Positions 1 through 16,107 of a stretch of DNA of 26,702 nt are shown here, piece by piece. Every line of letters starts with the position of its first letter. Position 1 is the first letter of the stretch. The stretch covers positions 1 through 26,702 of the IMG/VR virus record IMGVR_UViG_3300030102_006934; one strand, 5' to 3'. Source of the DNA: a virus. Made by a program: the position numbers and the translations under genes. The notes beneath the pieces are model-generated. The model made no database searches and was not told where the DNA came from. It worked only from the letters and a program-made list of their open reading frames with translations.

Positions 1-246
1 AATGAAGAACAAACATTAGTTTTGGAAAATCAATTAGTAGAAATAGACGGTAATAGAGATAAGTCTTTAATAAGAGATTTTGCAAATAATATGAGGGTTG
101 GTGATGCTCAGGGTCTTAGAGATTATATATCTACTATTGAGTGTGGTATAGACATGAACATTGAAGTTAGGACTCCTGGAGGTGAGTCCGTTCCCATGTT
201 TCTTCCCATTACACCAAGGTTTTTTTGGCCTAACTCCAGAATATAA
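1..246 (+). CDS. Tail assembly chaperone, gp26-like, upstream frame (5' end outside the window)
   Basis: This frame is open from the first base, so the gene probably starts before the window. The only start-like codon nearby is a TTG at 22. The visible part reads as the N-terminal half of the T4 gp26-type baseplate/tail chaperone family: a helical stretch (DYISTIECGID), then a beta segment ending in a PITPRFFWPN motif. An FFWP motif near the middle is, from memory, typical of that family. The frame stops at 244-246, only a few codons after FFWP. The rest of the family's usual sequence continues in the +1 frame (next entry). The tape measure gene lies one gene downstream, which is where G/GT-type tail chaperones are found. 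The short product could be a separate chaperone form, or the gene could carry an indel. Family assignment is from motif memory, without a search. Confidence 0.6.
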   Translation, partial: NEEQTLVLENQLVEIDGNRDKSLIRDFANNMRVGDAQGLRDYISTIECGIDMNIEVRTPGGESVPMFLPITPRFFWPNSRI

Positions 247-499
247 GTCAGGATTACTTGAAGAAATTTATATATGTATAAAACATCTTGGTATGACGTA
301 TCAAGATGCTTTATCAACACCAACGCACGAAAGAAAATTCTTTATATTAACACTTATTAATGAAAATAACAAACAAAATGAAGAATCTCAAAAGCAAATG
401 GAAAGGCTTAGAAATAAGGGCGCTAAGGGCACTAGGTCTTCAAGAATTGGTGGTGAGCAATTAAAATCAAAAATGAGAAGTGGAGAAATACCTAACTAA
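161..499 (+). CDS. Tail assembly chaperone, gp26-like, downstream (+1) frame
   Basis: The frame is open from before 161 to the TAA at 497-499, but the family-like part begins only at about 227 (GLTPEYKSGLLEEIY). The ATG at 161 lies inside the upstream frame and probably is not a real start. The continuing sequence has a helical segment and an LSTPTHERKFFILTLINE segment, resembling the 'MP..R..f...l' part of the gp26 family, then a basic coiled tail. Joined by a +1 (or -2) shift at the T7 run 220-226 or just after it, the two frames give about 158 residues plus the missing N-terminus. The stop codon sits in the loop of the terminator that follows. The frameshifted product would be the equivalent of lambda gpGT; a one-base assembly error would give one ordinary gene instead. 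Confidence 0.55.
   Translation: MKLGLLEVSPFPCFFPLHQGFFGLTPEYKSGLLEEIYICIKHLGMTYQDALSTPTHERKFFILTLINENNKQNEESQKQMERLRNKGAKGTRSSRIGGEQLKSKMRSGEIPN
220..226 (+). other. Candidate frameshift site (T7 run)
   Basis: Seven T residues lie in the upstream frame as AGG TTT TTT TGG CCT. Moving +1 here (or -2) passes the ribosome into the frame that carries the rest of the protein. Shifting at TTT gives RFF-GLTPEYK; shifting after the Pro codon CCT (229-231) gives FFWP-TPEYK, which keeps the family motif. The shift must occur before the TAA at 244. I cannot choose between slippage and an indel from one sequence. Confidence 0.45.
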
Positions 500-2108: not shown

Positions 2109-4706
2109 ATGGCTGATGATTTTGATAAATATAATGAAATGTTTGGCGAAGCCGCTAGGAATTTAGACAAAATACGTAAGGGTTCTAAAGAGGTAGAAAA
2201 AAGTATTAGTGCTTGGTATAAAGCATCAAGAGATATTGCTGAAACTCAGAAAGATATAGCTAATATTGAGAATCAGATAGAGGCTACTAAAAAAGAATTA
2301 TCAACTTTAGATGAATTAAGAAAGAAAGATGCTGCTAAATTAACCGAACAAGAAAAGAAAACATTAAGAGTATTAACAGAGCAAGAAAAATACATTAAAG
2401 GTAGATTAAAATACCTTGAAAGAGAAAATAAAGAGAAGAGAGAAGGGTTAAACAATCTAAAAGAGTCAGTTAAGGAGGCTAATAAATTAAAATCTATAGC
2501 TAGGTCAACTGGAAGCTTTGTTAAAAAGTGGGGTTGGGATAAACTAAAATCATACGGGATATTTGATATGGATAAAGCCATACGTAATGCATCTCGTAGT
2601 ATGGCTCTTGGTAATAATCAATTTGAATCTTTTTCTAAAAATTTATCAACAGCTGCGGATAGCACTGTAATGATGGGTGTTAATGTAACTCAGTTAGCTA
2701 AAATGCAACAGGGTTATAGTAAAGAAATTGGTAGAAGTGTTAGGCTTACACAAGGAGGACTTAAAGCTATGGCTGGATTGGCTGAAGGTACTGGACTTGG
2801 TGAACAATTCGCAATAGGTATGGCTTCAGCAATGGATAACTTTGGAGTTGGGGCTGAAGCTAGTGCTGATTTGGTTGAAAAGACTATGAATATTTCTGGT
2901 CAGATGGGTGTTAATGGACAGGCCGCTGCACAAGCATTACAAAAGAATTTAAAATTAGCCCAAAGATATAACTTTAAGGGTGGTGTTAAGGCTTTAGGTA
3001 AGATGTCTGCTGATGCAGTTAGGCTTAAATTAGACATGGATGGTATTGCTGGATTAGCCGATAAAGTTTTTAGACCAGAAGGGGCAATAGAAATGGCCGC
3101 ACAATTATCAGTAATGGGTGGAGAGTTCGCAAAACTAGGTGACCCTATGACACTTATGTTTAAGGCTAGAAATGACTTTGAGGGCTTTGCTAAAGATATT
3201 GGTAAGGCTACGTCTGAATTTGTTGAGTTTAATAAAGAGACGGGCTCTTTTGAGGTGATGGGTGGTCTTGCTAGAGATAGGATGAGAGAGTTATCTAAAA
3301 TTACTGGTATTAGTGTTGATAAGATGCAAGAGATGGCGGTTCAACAAAAGAAATTGGAAACTATTGGTGGTATAACACCAGTTAATTTTGAAGAAAAGGA
3401 TAAAGAATTTCTGTCTAGTATAGCCGAGTACAGTGAAGATAAAAAGGGGTTCACTATTAATTTAGGTGGTCAAGAAAAATTAATTAGTCAATTAAGGGCT
3501 AGTGATTTAGAGTCTATCAGGAGTAAAGAACAAACACTTGAAGAAAGAGCTGAAGCTTCTAGAAGTTTTGATGAAACTATTAAGGATTTAATGATGTCGC
3601 TTAAACAAATACTATTACCTGTAGCTCAAGGACTTAAGAAGTTTGTTGGTGACCCATTAATTAAACTACAAAAACAATGGAGAGATGCTGGGTTTTATGA
3701 TAGCTTAAAATCTTTTGCTAAAAGTGCAATTTCTTTAGCTGGTAGTATAGCTAAATTTATTATAGAAAATCCAATTAAGTCATTAATTGGTGTTTTAGGT
3801 GGTTGGGCAGCACTGAAAGCTGCTACTTGGATATTCAACGGAAGAATGCTTAGATTAGGATTTAACATGGGTGGACCTATGGGTGGACCTATGGGTGGTA
3901 TGGGTCCTGGAGGTGTCGTTGGTGGTGGTGGTGTAGGTGCAAGTGGTTTATTTAATACTAGAGCCACTGGTGCTGGTAGTGCAATGAGTAGAGCGGGTAT
4001 GAGTAGAATGGCTATGGTTGGTAAAAACTTTAGAGGTGCGGCTGGTTCTGCTGGTGCTATTGGTGGTGGTATTTTAGCCGCTGGGTTTGCGGGTTATAAT
4101 GAATATCAAGAGAATAAAGCAATGGGTCTAGATGGCGCAGAAAATGCTGGTAGAACCGCTACTAAAGCTATTAGTGCTGGTCTAGGTGCTTGGGGTGGAG
4201 CTGCTGCTGGAGCTGCAATCGGTAGTGTTGTCCCTGTTATCGGTACTGTTATTGGTGGGCTTATAGGTGGGGCTATTGGGGCTTATGGTGGTGGTTCGTT
4301 AGGTGAATCTATAGGTGACGCTGTTTATGGTAATGAAAGAGAGAATGCTGGTGGAAGTATGGGTTATAGTAGACTGCCAATGAACGATGGTATAATAGAA
4401 TTTAACCCTAAAGATAAATTTGCTACTATAAGTAATGTTGGTATGGGTGGTGGTATCCTTGCAGCATCAACAAGTCAAAATCAATTAAATACATTAGTTG
4501 ATAACGCCAATTCTAACGGTATTGTAAATCATAAATTTGATAAAATAGATATAAACCTTAATTTTAAGGGTAATATAAATGAATCAACAGCTAAGGAATT
4601 TCTAGATGTTCCTGGTATGAGTGAAGCACTAACAACCGCAATAAACGAACAAATAGCTGGTTCACAAAATCAAAATAAACCATCACCACAACCATTTTCG
4701 GCTTAA
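2109..4706 (+). CDS. Tail tape measure protein
   Basis: The 865-aa protein should set tail length and pass through the tail tube during DNA injection. Residues 1-130 are strongly helical and charged (coiled coil, many E/K/Q). Residues 160-460 are Ala/Gly/Met-rich helices of the kind seen in myophage tape measures. There is a hydrophobic segment around 535-580, then a Gly/Met-rich low-complexity patch (about 587-620). A long Gly/Ala-rich hydrophobic region (about 640-745) contains alternating membrane-like helices. The C-terminus is hydrophilic and ends in a Gln/Pro-rich tail. At about 1.5 angstrom per residue it would predict a tail near 130 nm. The position after a tail chaperone and before baseplate genes supports the call. 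The ATG at 2109 follows an A/T-rich leader without Shine-Dalgarno sequence. Confidence 0.85.
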   Translation: MADDFDKYNEMFGEAARNLDKIRKGSKEVEKSISAWYKASRDIAETQKDIANIENQIEATKKELSTLDELRKKDAAKLTEQEKKTLRVLTEQEKYIKGRLKYLERENKEKREGLNNLKESVKEANKLKSIARSTGSFVKKWGWDKLKSYGIFDMDKAIRNASRSMALGNNQFESFSKNLSTAADSTVMMGVNVTQLAKMQQGYSKEIGRSVRLTQGGLKAMAGLAEGTGLGEQFAIGMASAMDNFGVGAEASADLVEKTMNISGQMGVNGQAAAQALQKNLKLAQRYNFKGGVKALGKMSADAVRLKLDMDGIAGLADKVFRPEGAIEMAAQLSVMGGEFAKLGDPMTLMFKARNDFEGFAKDIGKATSEFVEFNKETGSFEVMGGLARDRMRELSKITGISVDKMQEMAVQQKKLETIGGITPVNFEEKDKEFLSSIAEYSEDKKGFTINLGGQEKLISQLRASDLESIRSKEQTLEERAEASRSFDETIKDLMMSLKQILLPVAQGLKKFVGDPLIKLQKQWRDAGFYDSLKSFAKSAISLAGSIAKFIIENPIKSLIGVLGGWAALKAATWIFNGRMLRLGFNMGGPMGGPMGGMGPGGVVGGGGVGASGLFNTRATGAGSAMSRAGMSRMAMVGKNFRGAAGSAGAIGGGILAAGFAGYNEYQENKAMGLDGAENAGRTATKAISAGLGAWGGAAAGAAIGSVVPVIGTVIGGLIGGAIGAYGGGSLGESIGDAVYGNERENAGGSMGYSRLPMNDGIIEFNPKDKFATISNVGMGGGILAASTSQNQLNTLVDNANSNGIVNHKFDKIDINLNFKGNINESTAKEFLDVPGMSEALTTAINEQIAGSQNQNKPSPQPFSA
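3867..3908 (+). repeat. Short tandem repeat in tape measure gene
   Basis: Two exact copies of ATGGGTGGACCT (3867-3878, 3879-3890) are followed by two shortened copies (ATGGGTGGT, ATGGGTCCT). They encode a Met-Gly-Gly-Pro-rich patch that links the hydrophobic segments of the tape measure protein. Confidence 0.85.
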
Positions 4707-4982: not shown

Positions 4983-5000
4983 TATATTTATAATAAAAGA
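4983..5000 (+). promoter_or_regulatory. Candidate phage promoter motif, TATATTTATA type
   Basis: TATATTTATAATAAAAGA is identical over 18 bases to the sequence at 531-548 and lies 6 bases upstream of the ATG at 5007. Finding the same string in front of two structural genes suggests a phage promoter or a shared translation-start context. Confidence 0.45.
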
Positions 5001-5006
5001 TATAAT

Positions 5007-8000
5007 ATGCCAAGTAGTATAAATAGTTTATCACCTACATTTAGAGATTTATTACTTAATAGAAATATAGTCACTGATACTATATCTAATAATGGATTAA
5101 CAACCCTACTAAACGGTATAGGTACTCCAGTTAATCCATCAACTCAACCAGAGATAATACAACCCTCAGAAGATATTGAAGTAATTGGTGTTTTTCATAG
5201 AGAAAGTGATACAATAGTTAATAAATATCAAGGTTCATTATCTGATTACGAACAATATAGTGTAAACTATTTACCAGGTAATAATAATACTACAATAGCT
5301 GGAAACCCTTGGAATAATGGTATTTATGATGTTAATGGTTCAGCCGCTGAACTATTACAAGCTAATAATGATTTTATTCAAGTAAATACATCAAATAATG
5401 CTTATTTAGATACTAGTCAACAAACAGTTTCTGATATATATACTAATCCAGTTAATTCTCAAACAGGTTCATACAATGATTCAGAAGCTGAATTAATTGA
5501 TGAAAGTAATGGTTTTTTAGAAACAAATGTCGTAAAAAACATGTATTCAGATGAGGATTCACAAATACCAACAATAGTTAGTTATAATTCATCCACACCT
5601 AAAAATGGTCCATACTCTCCAGGGGACACTAATTCTACTATAGGTGGTAGTTTAGCCGAATCAACTAGTAATATATTAGGTTCTAGTAGTGAATACTTAC
5701 AAACAAACACATCTAACAATATTTACTTAGATGTTGATAAACAAACACAGGTTAATATTGAATATAAATCAGTAACATTTCAAACTGGTTCTTATTTAGA
5801 TGAAAACAATAACGTTAACGTTGGTGGACCAGATACACAACCTTTTGATATCGCTAGTAGTTTACTAAATGGTGGTGGTGTTGGATTTGACCCTAACGGT
5901 GGTGGATTAGTTTCAAATGCTGATGTTAGAAGCTCATTAAGCGGTAGAATACTGACAGCAAGTGGCGTTATAAATGATACAAGATTAGGTCAATTGTCAG
6001 CTGGATATTTAGCAACGGCTATAGGTAATAATATAGCATTTGAACTACAAGAAAATACAATTGGTAAGGTTAATACAAATTTAACCAGTCTCATAAAAGG
6101 TGGTAATTTAATAATACCAAACTATAAAATAACTGTTGGTAGTGGTATACTAGGTAAAACTGGAGATTTATTAGAAAGAATGACTGGCGCTAAGATACCA
6201 CTTAGTTTACTAAAAACATCAATATTTGCATCTGAAAGTGGTTGGGATACAGGTAATATATCTAGAGCCAATTCAATGCTTGAAAACACTGGTAAAGGCC
6301 AAATACTACAAATGTTTAGTAATTTGAACGCCAGTACCGACCCATCACTAATTGGGGATAAAAGAAATGGTTTTACACCACCTTTAAAAAATGATAAAAC
6401 TGGTATAGGAGTTAATAAAGAAGATTCTCCAAGTGGTAGTTCATATATCTATGAAGACCAATTAGCTGATGGGACCAATATTATAAATAATGGTCCAGCA
6501 CAATTAATAGGTGGATTCAATGATGAATTTGAAGGAGATGTTTTAGCATCAACTAGCTTTGGTTTTGGTAATTTAAGTTCATCTCAATTTGGTGAGTTTG
6601 GGAGGAAGCAAGGTGTATTTTCATGGGGAGATACTAACAATAATTATGAAGCACTTTCAGGTGTTAGTTCAACAGATGGTGGAGAAGGAATAAGTTTCGC
6701 CCTTAAAACTGAAAACCCAGGAGAGAGCTCGGCTAATAACTTTAAAAACGTAAATAGTTTATTATATAAGACACAAGAGTTATTTAAAGAAGGTAGAATG
6801 AAAACACTTGTATCTGGACAAGGTGTTAAAAATGAAACCACAACACAACTACAAATATCTAGAAAAGGTCTTATATCTAAAGGTTCTGGTGTATTAAGTG
6901 CTGACGCTTTATTAGGTGGTAATTTAGAACCACATGAAGTTTTTTGTAGAACATGGTCTACATTTGATAGATATGATAATAATCTAGATTTACAAAAAAG
7001 CTCTGGACTAATAGGTGGTGAAAATGGAGAATTCCCAAATAGACCATTTGGTAGAGCTAGTTTAGACGCATCGGTATTAGATAGTACTGGATTTGTGAAT
7101 ATAGGTCCAACTACAGATGATGAAGGTAATATTAGTGATATAAAAAGATTTATGTTCTCAATAGAGAATCTAGCATGGGCAGATGATTTACAAAAATTAA
7201 TGCCTTCTGAAAAGGGGCCAGGAGACCCGTTAAGTGGTTTAAGAGGTAGAATTATGTGGTTTCCACCATATGATATAAGTTTTAATGAGAGCACTTCAGT
7301 TAATTGGGACAGAAGTAATTTTATAGGTAGAGGAGAACCACTATACACTTATAATAATACTGAAAGAACTGGTTCGCTATCTTGGAAGATAATTATTGAC
7401 CACCCAAACTATTCTAATTACTTTCCAAAAGATTGGGGTAATGATGAAATAACATCTTTTTACGCTGGTTGCCTTGAATATGAACCAATAAGAGAAGTAA
7501 TATTAACTCCAGAAGAAAATGATGAAGTTGAGATAGACCAAAATATAGAAGTTGAGGAAAAGGTTGATGAGCAAGAGCCAGAAGCTGTATTATTTAATAT
7601 GTACTTCCCTAATGATGTTGGTCTGATTAATGATAAATACGAAAATGGTCTTAGTGGTACAACAACAGCAGATACTATTAATTACTCAGTAAACCCAACT
7701 GGTGAAGGATTTGGTATAGGTGTTTATAAATCTGGACCTCAATCCAATGGTGCATATAGTAACAGAAAATATACTGATAAAACTAATTTTGGTCTTAACG
7801 GTTCTAATAATAAATTTAAAATTGGTGATAAGGAAATAAATGGATACCAAGATGATATTTTTATATCAACACTAAGTGAATATATGAAAAACGAGTGTAA
7901 GTATTGTAAGATATTCTTAAAAGGTTATGCTAGTAAACAAGGTCAAAATAGTACAAAAAATCAAAAGCTATCAGATAATAGAGCTAATGAAATAAAAGAC

Positions 8001-9458
8001 TTTCTTAAAAAAGAAGTATTAATCGGTGACACTTTAGGTGATTCTAGATTCGAATTAGTTAAAGGTTTAGGTCAAATAAGTAGTAGTTCTTGTATCGCAA
8101 ACGGAGCAACATACACCAAAGCTTGTAAAAAAGACAGATATACTGAAATTAAAATAGAATATGACCCAAGTTTAAAACCAAAAGAAGAAGCGGTTGAGGA
8201 AAAAAAACCAGAAGTTAAAAAAACAAAAACAGTATCAATACCAAAAGGTAGATTTTTTACGGAGACTCATTATTTTAAAAAGTTAAAAGAAAGTGATGAA
8301 TTTATCTATAGAGATATAAGAGATAAAATAAAATATTTTCACCCTTCATTTCACAGTATGACACCAGAAGGATTTAACTCCAGGCTTAATTTTCTACATC
8401 AATGCACTAGACAAGGACCTACAACAAATGGAGTTGGAAATCCTAATAATTTAGCCTTTGGTAGACCACCAATTTGCATACTTAGAATTGGTGATTTTTA
8501 TCATACCAAAATAGCAATTGACTCAATGACATTAGATTATGAACCATTAGTATGGGACTTAAACCCAGAAGGTGTAGGTGTTCAACCTATGATTGCTAAT
8601 GTAACAATTAGCTTTGCATTTATAGGAGGGTCTAGTTTAGAGGGTCCGATAAATAAATTACAAAATGCAATATCATATAACTTCTATGCTAATACTGAGA
8701 TATACGATGCTAGAGCAGATAGAATTACTATTAACAAAGACTTACAAGCAAATGATGAAGGTAAGGGTTATGGGGAATTAGTACCAGGAGAATCACCAAA
8801 TTCACCAGTAGTTAAGTTAAAAAATAATGAAGACAAAGAAGGGTTAAATGATATTGATAAAGACCAAGAAGCAGTTGCCGACAATGAAGCTAATAAACCA
8901 GAAGTAGCTGAAGAACCAGAAAAAAGTGAGGATTATAAACACCTTAAAGATATTGTATTAGTTAATTTTTTTAATGATGATGATAAAATAATTTCATTTA
9001 AAGCAAGTGATTTAGATTTTCTTAGTGATGGGTGGAATTATAGATTTGGTGTGAATAACGGAACTTCAAATATAGCCTTAAAAAATGGCCCTATAAAACA
9101 AGAAGATTTAACAGATAATGGTAGTCTAATAGTAAATACTGGAGTTAAAACTTTTGACATGATAAAGTCAAATAATGGAATAACATTATATGGAAAGACA
9201 TTTAAAGATTATTATGATAACAATGAAATAGACCAATCATTAACATGTTATAGTGCAAATACCTCTGAATTAAAAGTTGACGGAGCCTTACTATATGTTG
9301 AGTTCTATAAAAACGGGGAAGATAAGGTTTTTAAAAGCAAATTTGATACTGGTTATACTTACTTTTATCAATGTGATTTTGATGATGAGATAAGAGGACA
9401 TATTGCCGATGGTAAGTATTCCGTAGAACAAAATTTGTTAGGATGTTTAATGTGTTAA
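5007..9458 (+). CDS. Large tail tube initiator/baseplate protein with inserted OmpA-like domain
   Basis: The 1483-aa protein has several parts. Residues 118-265 hold three degenerate repeats (cores near 123-157, 170-204, 230-264; pattern F/YLQTNTSNNxYLD...TGSY). Residues about 755-800 (SVNWDRSNFIGRGE, YTYNNTERTGS) and 1117-1245 (GVGVQPMIANVTISFAFIGG) resemble the tail-tube-like fold of gp48/gp54-type tube caps and initiators. Between these halves, framed by Glu/Lys-rich linkers (about 825-862 and 1053-1080), is an OmpA-like peptidoglycan-binding domain (about 863-1052). It has YFPNDVG, GYASKQG, LSDNRA and a Cys pair before DRYTEIKIEY, as in enterobacterial OmpA. The diaminopimelate-binding Asp of the TD motif is Ser here, while the Arg is kept. 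The C-terminal 240 residues are unrecognised. The position after the tape measure matches gp48/gp54. Confidence 0.7.
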   Translation: MPSSINSLSPTFRDLLLNRNIVTDTISNNGLTTLLNGIGTPVNPSTQPEIIQPSEDIEVIGVFHRESDTIVNKYQGSLSDYEQYSVNYLPGNNNTTIAGNPWNNGIYDVNGSAAELLQANNDFIQVNTSNNAYLDTSQQTVSDIYTNPVNSQTGSYNDSEAELIDESNGFLETNVVKNMYSDEDSQIPTIVSYNSSTPKNGPYSPGDTNSTIGGSLAESTSNILGSSSEYLQTNTSNNIYLDVDKQTQVNIEYKSVTFQTGSYLDENNNVNVGGPDTQPFDIASSLLNGGGVGFDPNGGGLVSNADVRSSLSGRILTASGVINDTRLGQLSAGYLATAIGNNIAFELQENTIGKVNTNLTSLIKGGNLIIPNYKITVGSGILGKTGDLLERMTGAKIPLSLLKTSIFASESGWDTGNISRANSMLENTGKGQILQMFSNLNASTDPSLIGDKRNGFTPPLKNDKTGIGVNKEDSPSGSSYIYEDQLADGTNIINNGPAQLIGGFNDEFEGDVLASTSFGFGNLSSSQFGEFGRKQGVFSWGDTNNNYEALSGVSSTDGGEGISFALKTENPGESSANNFKNVNSLLYKTQELFKEGRMKTLVSGQGVKNETTTQLQISRKGLISKGSGVLSADALLGGNLEPHEVFCRTWSTFDRYDNNLDLQKSSGLIGGENGEFPNRPFGRASLDASVLDSTGFVNIGPTTDDEGNISDIKRFMFSIENLAWADDLQKLMPSEKGPGDPLSGLRGRIMWFPPYDISFNESTSVNWDRSNFIGRGEPLYTYNNTERTGSLSWKIIIDHPNYSNYFPKDWGNDEITSFYAGCLEYEPIREVILTPEENDEVEIDQNIEVEEKVDEQEPEAVLFNMYFPNDVGLINDKYENGLSGTTTADTINYSVNPTGEGFGIGVYKSGPQSNGAYSNRKYTDKTNFGLNGSNNKFKIGDKEINGYQDDIFISTLSEYMKNECKYCKIFLKGYASKQGQNSTKNQKLSDNRANEIKDFLKKEVLIGDTLGDSRFELVKGLGQISSSSCIANGATYTKACKKDRYTEIKIEYDPSLKPKEEAVEEKKPEVKKTKTVSIPKGRFFTETHYFKKLKESDEFIYRDIRDKIKYFHPSFHSMTPEGFNSRLNFLHQCTRQGPTTNGVGNPNNLAFGRPPICILRIGDFYHTKIAIDSMTLDYEPLVWDLNPEGVGVQPMIANVTISFAFIGGSSLEGPINKLQNAISYNFYANTEIYDARADRITINKDLQANDEGKGYGELVPGESPNSPVVKLKNNEDKEGLNDIDKDQEAVADNEANKPEVAEEPEKSEDYKHLKDIVLVNFFNDDDKIISFKASDLDFLSDGWNYRFGVNNGTSNIALKNGPIKQEDLTDNGSLIVNTGVKTFDMIKSNNGITLYGKTFKDYYDNNEIDQSLTCYSANTSELKVDGALLYVEFYKNGEDKVFKSKFDTGYTYFYQCDFDDEIRGHIADGKYSVEQNLLGCLMC

Positions 9459-15405: not shown

Positions 15406-16107
15406 ATGGGACTACAACCATTCGTTAATTTATCAACCGAAAATTTCAACCTAATACAACCCTATTTTGTTGGTAGGTCTAGAAATGTTGAAAAATTAGA
15501 TACTATATGCTTACATTGGACTGCTGGTTCAAGTGTGGATAATGATATAAAAACACTTAAAAGAAAAGGTTATGGCTATCATTTCATAATAGATAAAGAG
15601 GGTAAAGTAAATCAAGGGGCTCCATTAAGTAGAAGAGTTGGTCATGCTGGAAATGCTTATGGCCCAAACAAGGGTTTAGTTAATACAACTAGTATAGGAA
15701 TTTCATTTAGCATGTTAGGCACTAAAGGTAATGATGATTTTAATCAGTCCCAACTAAATTCTTTAGAGGATTTAATATTAGACCTAAGAGAAGCAGTACC
15801 AACATTAAAATGGCTAACAGGTCATCATTGGGTATCACCAGGTAGAAAAATAGACCCATATACCTTCCCATTTGATGAATTCATTAGTAGCCCAAATCTA
15901 AAGGGTTGGTTAAAATTATGGAAAACTGGTTATGAACCATTCCCAGAGGGTTTAAGTGATTGTAAATGTATAGAAAAAAGAAGTGATGGTAGTTGTAAAA
16001 AATCTAAAGGTAGTTGTACAGGACCTGGAGATTTAAGTTATTCAGAAAGAAAATTGAGTAAAGAAGTTTCAGATTTAGGTTTTCAATCAGACCGAGACAC
16101 ACCATAA
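15406..16107 (+). CDS. N-acetylmuramoyl-L-alanine amidase (Amidase_2/T7 lysozyme type)
   Basis: The 233-aa enzyme should cut the amide bond between N-acetylmuramic acid and the stem peptide. Motifs appear in family order: LHWTAG with zinc ligand His37, GYGYHFIID with Tyr58, GHAGN with His80, and TGHHWVSPGRKIDP with zinc ligand His140 or His141, Lys148 and zinc ligand Asp150. Lys148 and Asp150 correspond to T7 lysozyme Lys128 and Cys130. The catalytic domain ends near residue 165. The remaining 70 residues carry four cysteines (186, 188, 197, 204) in a Lys/Ser-rich tail, perhaps a small disulfide or metal-binding module. There is no signal peptide. It is the last gene of the baseplate block, so it may be a virion-borne lysin acting at infection (like the T4 gp5 lysozyme), though an endolysin role is possible. 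Confidence 0.88.
   Translation: MGLQPFVNLSTENFNLIQPYFVGRSRNVEKLDTICLHWTAGSSVDNDIKTLKRKGYGYHFIIDKEGKVNQGAPLSRRVGHAGNAYGPNKGLVNTTSIGISFSMLGTKGNDDFNQSQLNSLEDLILDLREAVPTLKWLTGHHWVSPGRKIDPYTFPFDEFISSPNLKGWLKLWKTGYEPFPEGLSDCKCIEKRSDGSCKKSKGSCTGPGDLSYSERKLSKEVSDLGFQSDRDTP

Follow-up and report, generated by a model that had tools for sequence, protein, structure and literature searches.

A probable programmed +1 frameshift splits a putative gp26/gp51-type tail chaperone gene in a large group of T4-related viruses

Bacteriophage lambda makes gpG and gpGT, a short and an extended product with a common N-domain, from a gene located between the tail tube and tape measure genes, by a programmed −1 frameshift at GGGAAAG. 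According to a review of recoding, most long-tailed phages conserve G-T frameshifting, with T4 as the exception, and other shifts occur in tail genes as well, −2 in Mu-type phages and +1 in the archaeal HSTV-2 (PMC5009743). The T4 proteins gp26 and gp51 are classed among the hub assembly chaperones, the latter being essential and of unknown function (PMC3004832). Here we describe a gene at the start of a 26,702-nucleotide window (bases 1-26702 of the 380,343-bp virus record IMGVR_UViG_3300030102_006934) which, as judged from comparison with its relatives, very probably undergoes a programmed +1 frameshift that yields a short and a long putative tail chaperone. No earlier report was found in the literature searched, a scope that ended short of subscription journals and preprints.

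Because position 1 of the window is base 1 of the virus record, the gene is truncated at its 5′ side by the contig end. The two contig ends of the record do not overlap, and the 5′ part of the gene was therefore taken from contig L005, which is identical to the window (0 mismatches in 2500 bases) and encodes a complete zero-frame product of 375 aa. In the window, where the split gene, the hairpin that follows it and the tape measure gene lie on the + strand, the zero-frame ORF (1-246) carries the 3′ part of the N-domain. Read from the letters, it has a run of seven T's at 220-226 and ends (217-246) with AGG TTT TTT TGG CCT AAC TCC AGA ATA TAA, i.e. R F F W P N S R I and a stop (244-246), eight codons past the first Phe codon of the site. 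The +1 frame, from 221 TTT TTT GGC CTA ACT CCA GAA TAT AAG, is open until TAA 497-499 and continues past the T7 run with FFGLTPEYK and about 90 further residues; the part at 224-499 (F-GLTPEYK...GEIPN) is hereafter called the C-domain. Part of the listed +1 ORF (161-499) is nominal: about 20 initial codons overlap the zero-frame gene, and the stretch matching its start is closed by stops in most relatives. An intrinsic-terminator-like hairpin with a U run (486-527; −11.3 kcal/mol, z −3.8) is located directly 3′ of the +1-frame stop, and the C-domain is therefore the last coding unit ahead of the hairpin.

The N-domains of all 27 relatives compared match phrog_150 ("baseplate hub"; best 2.8e-22), and those of 21 of them match PF12322 ("T4 bacteriophage base plate protein"; best 1.6e-18); the window's own N-domain (from L005) scores 17.5 bits against PF12322, below the Pfam cut-off of 24.5 bits. 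By sequence, the split gene belongs to the gp26/gp51 family. Of the 27 C-domains, 3 hit phrog_634 ("baseplate hub assembly catalyst"; 8.2e-5), a profile also matched by the last 45 residues of T4 gp51 (3.9e-7) and by a small cyanophage C-domain ORF (4.7e-25). HHalign placed the C-domain on the T4 gp51 tail at the expected position (E 5.6e-4, 33 columns); single-sequence comparisons with T4 gp26/gp51 were weak, and small profiles gave better scores. Together this lends moderate support to the C-domain being a counterpart of the gp51 C-terminal extension. Weak matches to DUF6760 (13/27, best E 1.1e-4), a family of stand-alone small proteins of unknown function, make kinship with it suggestive only. 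The predicted N-domain model has a pLDDT of 93.4, and the C-domain, folded apart from the N-domain, is predicted to be a helical hairpin (pLDDT 93.1). Searching the PDB by sequence and by fold gave no significant match, with the HK97 tail chaperone 2ob9 fourth in the fold ranking (E 1.9). Neither sequence nor fold tied the protein to tail chaperones already described (TAC families, HK97 gp13); one of the 27 C-domains hit Phage_TAC_13 at 0.089. The mode of action may be lambda-like by analogy; by sequence the gene points to gp26/gp51 and has no detectable kinship with the lambda chaperones.

The gene order fits a G/GT-type role. In L005 the split gene is preceded by the sheath (phrog_23) and tube (phrog_4542) genes and followed by one gene and then the tape measure gene (phrog_167), and so is positioned between tail tube and tape measure. 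This order recurs in cultured relatives, where the split gene and the tape measure gene are separated by a small gene or by none. In the window a single gene (557-2089) separates it from the gene (2109-4706; phrog_167, E 7.8e-18) of the tape measure protein, the presumed chaperone client. The initial annotation had taken the two frames to be halves of a gp26-family protein, broken at the T7 run a few codons before a stop, and both points are borne out; its placement of the gene near the tape measure gene also stands, corrected in that one gene intervenes. The product of that gene starts with two near copies of KLVITESQYN and has no convincing family match. Further along, 3′ of the tape measure gene, the window encodes a tail-region protein of 1483 aa that weakly matches an OmpA-type family (5007-9458; 4.3e-4) and an amidase_2 enzyme (15406-16107; 3.8e-17).

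Recruitment of relatives with the +1 peptide as query gave 80 environmental loci. Since many of these had been recruited through FFGLTPEY, a second set of 80 loci was collected with N-domain motifs alone (alignment A1), the junction being unused. The break was kept in 80/80 loci of the first set and in 80/80 of the second; pooled, 160/160 relatives have it at TTT-YTT-TNN-CCN (the script sought TTT[TC]TTT, then one of four allowed dinucleotides, then CC; 0 loci were excluded), and an alignment of relatives across the T run and frame change, proposed in the initial annotation, returned a single uninterrupted frame in none. TTT Y TTT is invariant among them, the forms being TTTTTTTGGCCT (134 loci), TTTCTTTGGCCT (18), TTTCTTTACCCT (3), TTTTTTTTCCCT (2), TTTTTTTACCCT (2) and TTTTTTTGGCCA (1); the TTTCTTT form, found in 21 of the 160, has no T run longer than three. 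When the viral collection was scanned with a protein-blind 18-base DNA motif, TTTYTTTGGCCTRACNCC, the gene architecture was present in 78 of 79 loci among the matches listed; the odd one, L200, has the right peptide but a stop upstream. The nucleotides of the site are conserved beyond the requirements of the protein. In 105 of 105 less-redundant loci the first Phe codon is TTT, while TTC makes up 17% of Phe codons in the N-domains of the same loci; the chance of this is about 2e-9, in a statistic that ignores kinship. The short zero-frame tail, WP-N/D, is conserved too, and is followed by an early stop (5 to 12 codons past the first Phe codon, mostly 6 or 8; n=160).

The same break is found in eight cultured phages, Mel-JY01, Flavobacterium immuto, SP-15, LIS04, GXN1, BRock, LuckySocke and RM378. 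In the public records of Flavobacterium phage immuto (L086, 4630 onward) and Bacillus phage SP-15 (L171, 3717 onward) the +1 C-domain is unannotated, and in that of Mel-JY01 (L085, 4740-4976) it is entered as a separate overlapping hypothetical protein.

The initial annotation had allowed a shift of either +1 or −2. A Mu-like −2 ribosomal frameshift at the T7 run would reach the same frame, and pairing two bases back is feasible within seven T's. However, TTT CTT T, TTC TTT C, CTG TTT C and TTT CTA do not let a P-site tRNA re-pair two bases back, so that −2 fails in the TTTCTTT loci as well as in GXN1, BRock, LuckySocke and LR756508; slipping by +1 at UUU_Y (or CUU_U) gives good pairing in all these variants. 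Because TTTCTTT and the other variants permit re-pairing at +1 and never at −2, we favour +1, and regard −2 as highly unlikely. All forms share a UUU in the zero frame with a pyrimidine (U or C) directly after it, seen as TTT T and TTT C(TT), as TTT C(TA) in LR756508, as TTT C in GXN1, BRock, LuckySocke and SP-15, and as TTT T in LIS04, Mel-JY01 and RM378; inspection of the sites indicates that tRNA-Phe can re-pair one base forward in every form. UUU_Ynn is reported to be especially prone to +1 shifts, even without a 3′ stop codon (PMC5009743).

In the window the candidate shift site (220-226) has UUU at 220-222 followed by U 223. Slippage is possible at two adjacent codons, the first UUU_Y or, in the environmental clade, the second (UUU_U / CUU_U); in the window a slip at the next codon gives an identical peptide. 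The codon after either candidate is a stop in 0 cases. We could not identify a stimulator among SD-like sequences or RNA structure: upstream SD-like sequences occur in 9/105 loci against a background of 14%, and structure around the site gave weak signals, with z averaging about −0.9 at −30 and −1.1 at +50. An AAGG just 5′ of the T run in the window was considered as an RF2-type SD stimulator and rejected, as it is not conserved. The site thus resembles that of RF2 (prfB; CUU_UGA) in a forward P-site slip on YUU_U, the CUU_U form being that of the 21 TTTCTTT loci, and differs from it in lacking an A-site stop codon and an SD-like stimulator.

A T7 run in a metagenome assembly could also reflect a one-base homopolymer error, which the initial annotation had put forward as the main alternative; the true gene would then be a single uninterrupted ORF. 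This does not fit with the recurrence of the break in every one of the 160 independent contigs and in the eight cultured phages, nor with the conservation of the zero-frame tail itself, for which L130 keeps the Pro codon (CCA) and sacrifices the +1-frame Leu. Seven T's could likewise slip during transcription, giving mixed mRNAs and the same products; however, the TTTCTTT loci and immuto keep the break without any run over three T. Given such forms, sequencing error is therefore practically excluded, and transcriptional slippage is very improbable. It could further be proposed that the C-domain is made as a separate protein from its own start, by re-initiation and with no fusion, as cyanophages and 121Q have an ATG beside the stop and a C-domain annotated as its own gene. 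In the +1 clade, however, 46 of 105 loci have no ATG, GTG or TTG near the start of the +1 ORF, and therefore no independent initiation; any ATG is found there in just 27 of the 105, and the T4 counterpart, gp51, is one continuous protein of N- and C-domain. We give separate synthesis little credence.

A programmed frameshift, as had been suggested for a G/GT-type chaperone, is thus strongly supported by the conservation of the break, site, short tail and gene order, and +1 is its best reading. Comparison establishes that the site, the frame, the ends of both products and the order of the genes are conserved; a shift in vivo, its rate and exact codon, and the chaperone roles are inferred. Most ribosomes would stay in the zero frame and stop a few codons past FFWP, producing the short protein. 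In a minority, the P-site tRNA-Phe would slip at UUU_Y, re-pair with the overlapping UUY and enter the +1 frame; in the window it would move from 220-222 to 221-223, and reading would resume with UUU 224-226 and GGC 227-229. The shifted ribosomes would add the helical C-domain of about 90 residues and so make the long product. By analogy with gpG/gpGT, the short form may coat the tape measure protein and the rarer long form may bring in tube or baseplate-hub subunits, in a ratio presumably set by the shift. The conserved break, site and architecture are consistent with two products from one gene.

Compared with lambda, the split gene has the same location and the same scheme of short and extended products with a common N-domain, in contrast to which the shift is +1 at UUU_Y instead of −1, the sequences have no detectable kinship, the tail is contractile and T4-type, and an extra gene lies ahead of the tape measure gene. 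The Mu-type −2 and HSTV-2 +1 shifts are other routes into the same forward frame in tail-assembly genes; unlike the Mu type, the site here is UUU_Y, with variants incompatible with −2.

Other lineages (Atu_ph07, Phosso, Paride, 121Q, 7t3 and RAS14) place the C-domain in the −1 frame, in most cases at T_TTT_TTC; Cygsa01 shares the −1 arrangement but lacks a good slippery site. Among cyanophage-type loci and relatives of 121Q, T_TTT_TTC ends the N-domain in 81/83 loci, and nearly all have a −1-frame C-domain. In cyanophages and 121Q an ATG just past the stop permits separate initiation of the C-domain ORF, and −1 recoding there is therefore only a candidate.

T4 has two copies of PF12322, and 121Q, Sf-FS3, SP-15, BRock, Cygsa01 and Paride have one each. 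The T4 copies, gp26 and gp51, are paralogous (HHalign 8e-20 over gp51 5-202); they belong to the same N-domain family as the split gene, and gp26 stops at the zero-frame end, where gp51 runs on into its C-terminal extension. Unlike the split gene, they are two separate genes on opposite strands, with no recoding. In a tree of N-domains, drawn with a midpoint root and containing some long branches, gp26 and gp51 of Straboviridae cluster together in a group (97/94) adjoining the cyanophage form (100/99). We lean towards the view that the gp26/gp51 family is the missing G/GT system, ancestrally one frameshifted gene, and that in Straboviridae duplication replaced recoding, with gp26 as the short and gp51 as the long form; T4 would therefore appear as the exception. 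On the same view the ancestral shift would have been at the terminal FF of the N-domain; one large assemblage would use UUU_Y there for a +1 shift, and jumbo phages and cyanophages U_UUU_UUC for a −1 shift. This proposal draws on a moderate C-domain similarity and a tree that is in itself unrooted, and is consistent with the tests made.

T4 was thought to be without a lambda-type short/long helper, and a large T4-related group seems to have one. Frameshift architecture extends across T4-type relatives, with +1 and candidate −1 solutions at one homologous position and duplication in T4. If duplication did replace recoding, gp51 would act as the rare form that bridges. What gp26 and gp51 each do becomes directly testable, the relatives offer a large natural series of putative UUU_Y +1 sites, and a C-domain absent from the annotation of phage records such as those of immuto and SP-15 can be recognized.

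The same virus record contains a second tail module (L189; G000:C1:220000-233000). Its tube is 74% identical to that of L005, its tape-measure-like ORF has 35% identity, and its chaperone-like gene (5943-6716), with an N-domain 48% identical to the first copy, ends with FLWPEFGV* and likewise carries a +1 break, at TTTCTTTGGCCTGAG. The record has only a single Portal_T4 gene and a single Gp23 gene among those found, so either the phage possesses two tail modules or the contig is chimeric. A strong terminator-like hairpin with a U run also follows the +1-frame stop of the second copy (L189, 6886-6960). An identical 15-mer, TATATTTATAATAAA, is present at 531-545 and 4983-4997 of the window, 10-12 bases 5′ of the start codons ATG 557 and ATG 5007, where 0.16 matches would be expected if one mismatch is tolerated. 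A near copy lies 5′ of the gene following the second chaperone; the 15-mer is possibly a phage promoter.
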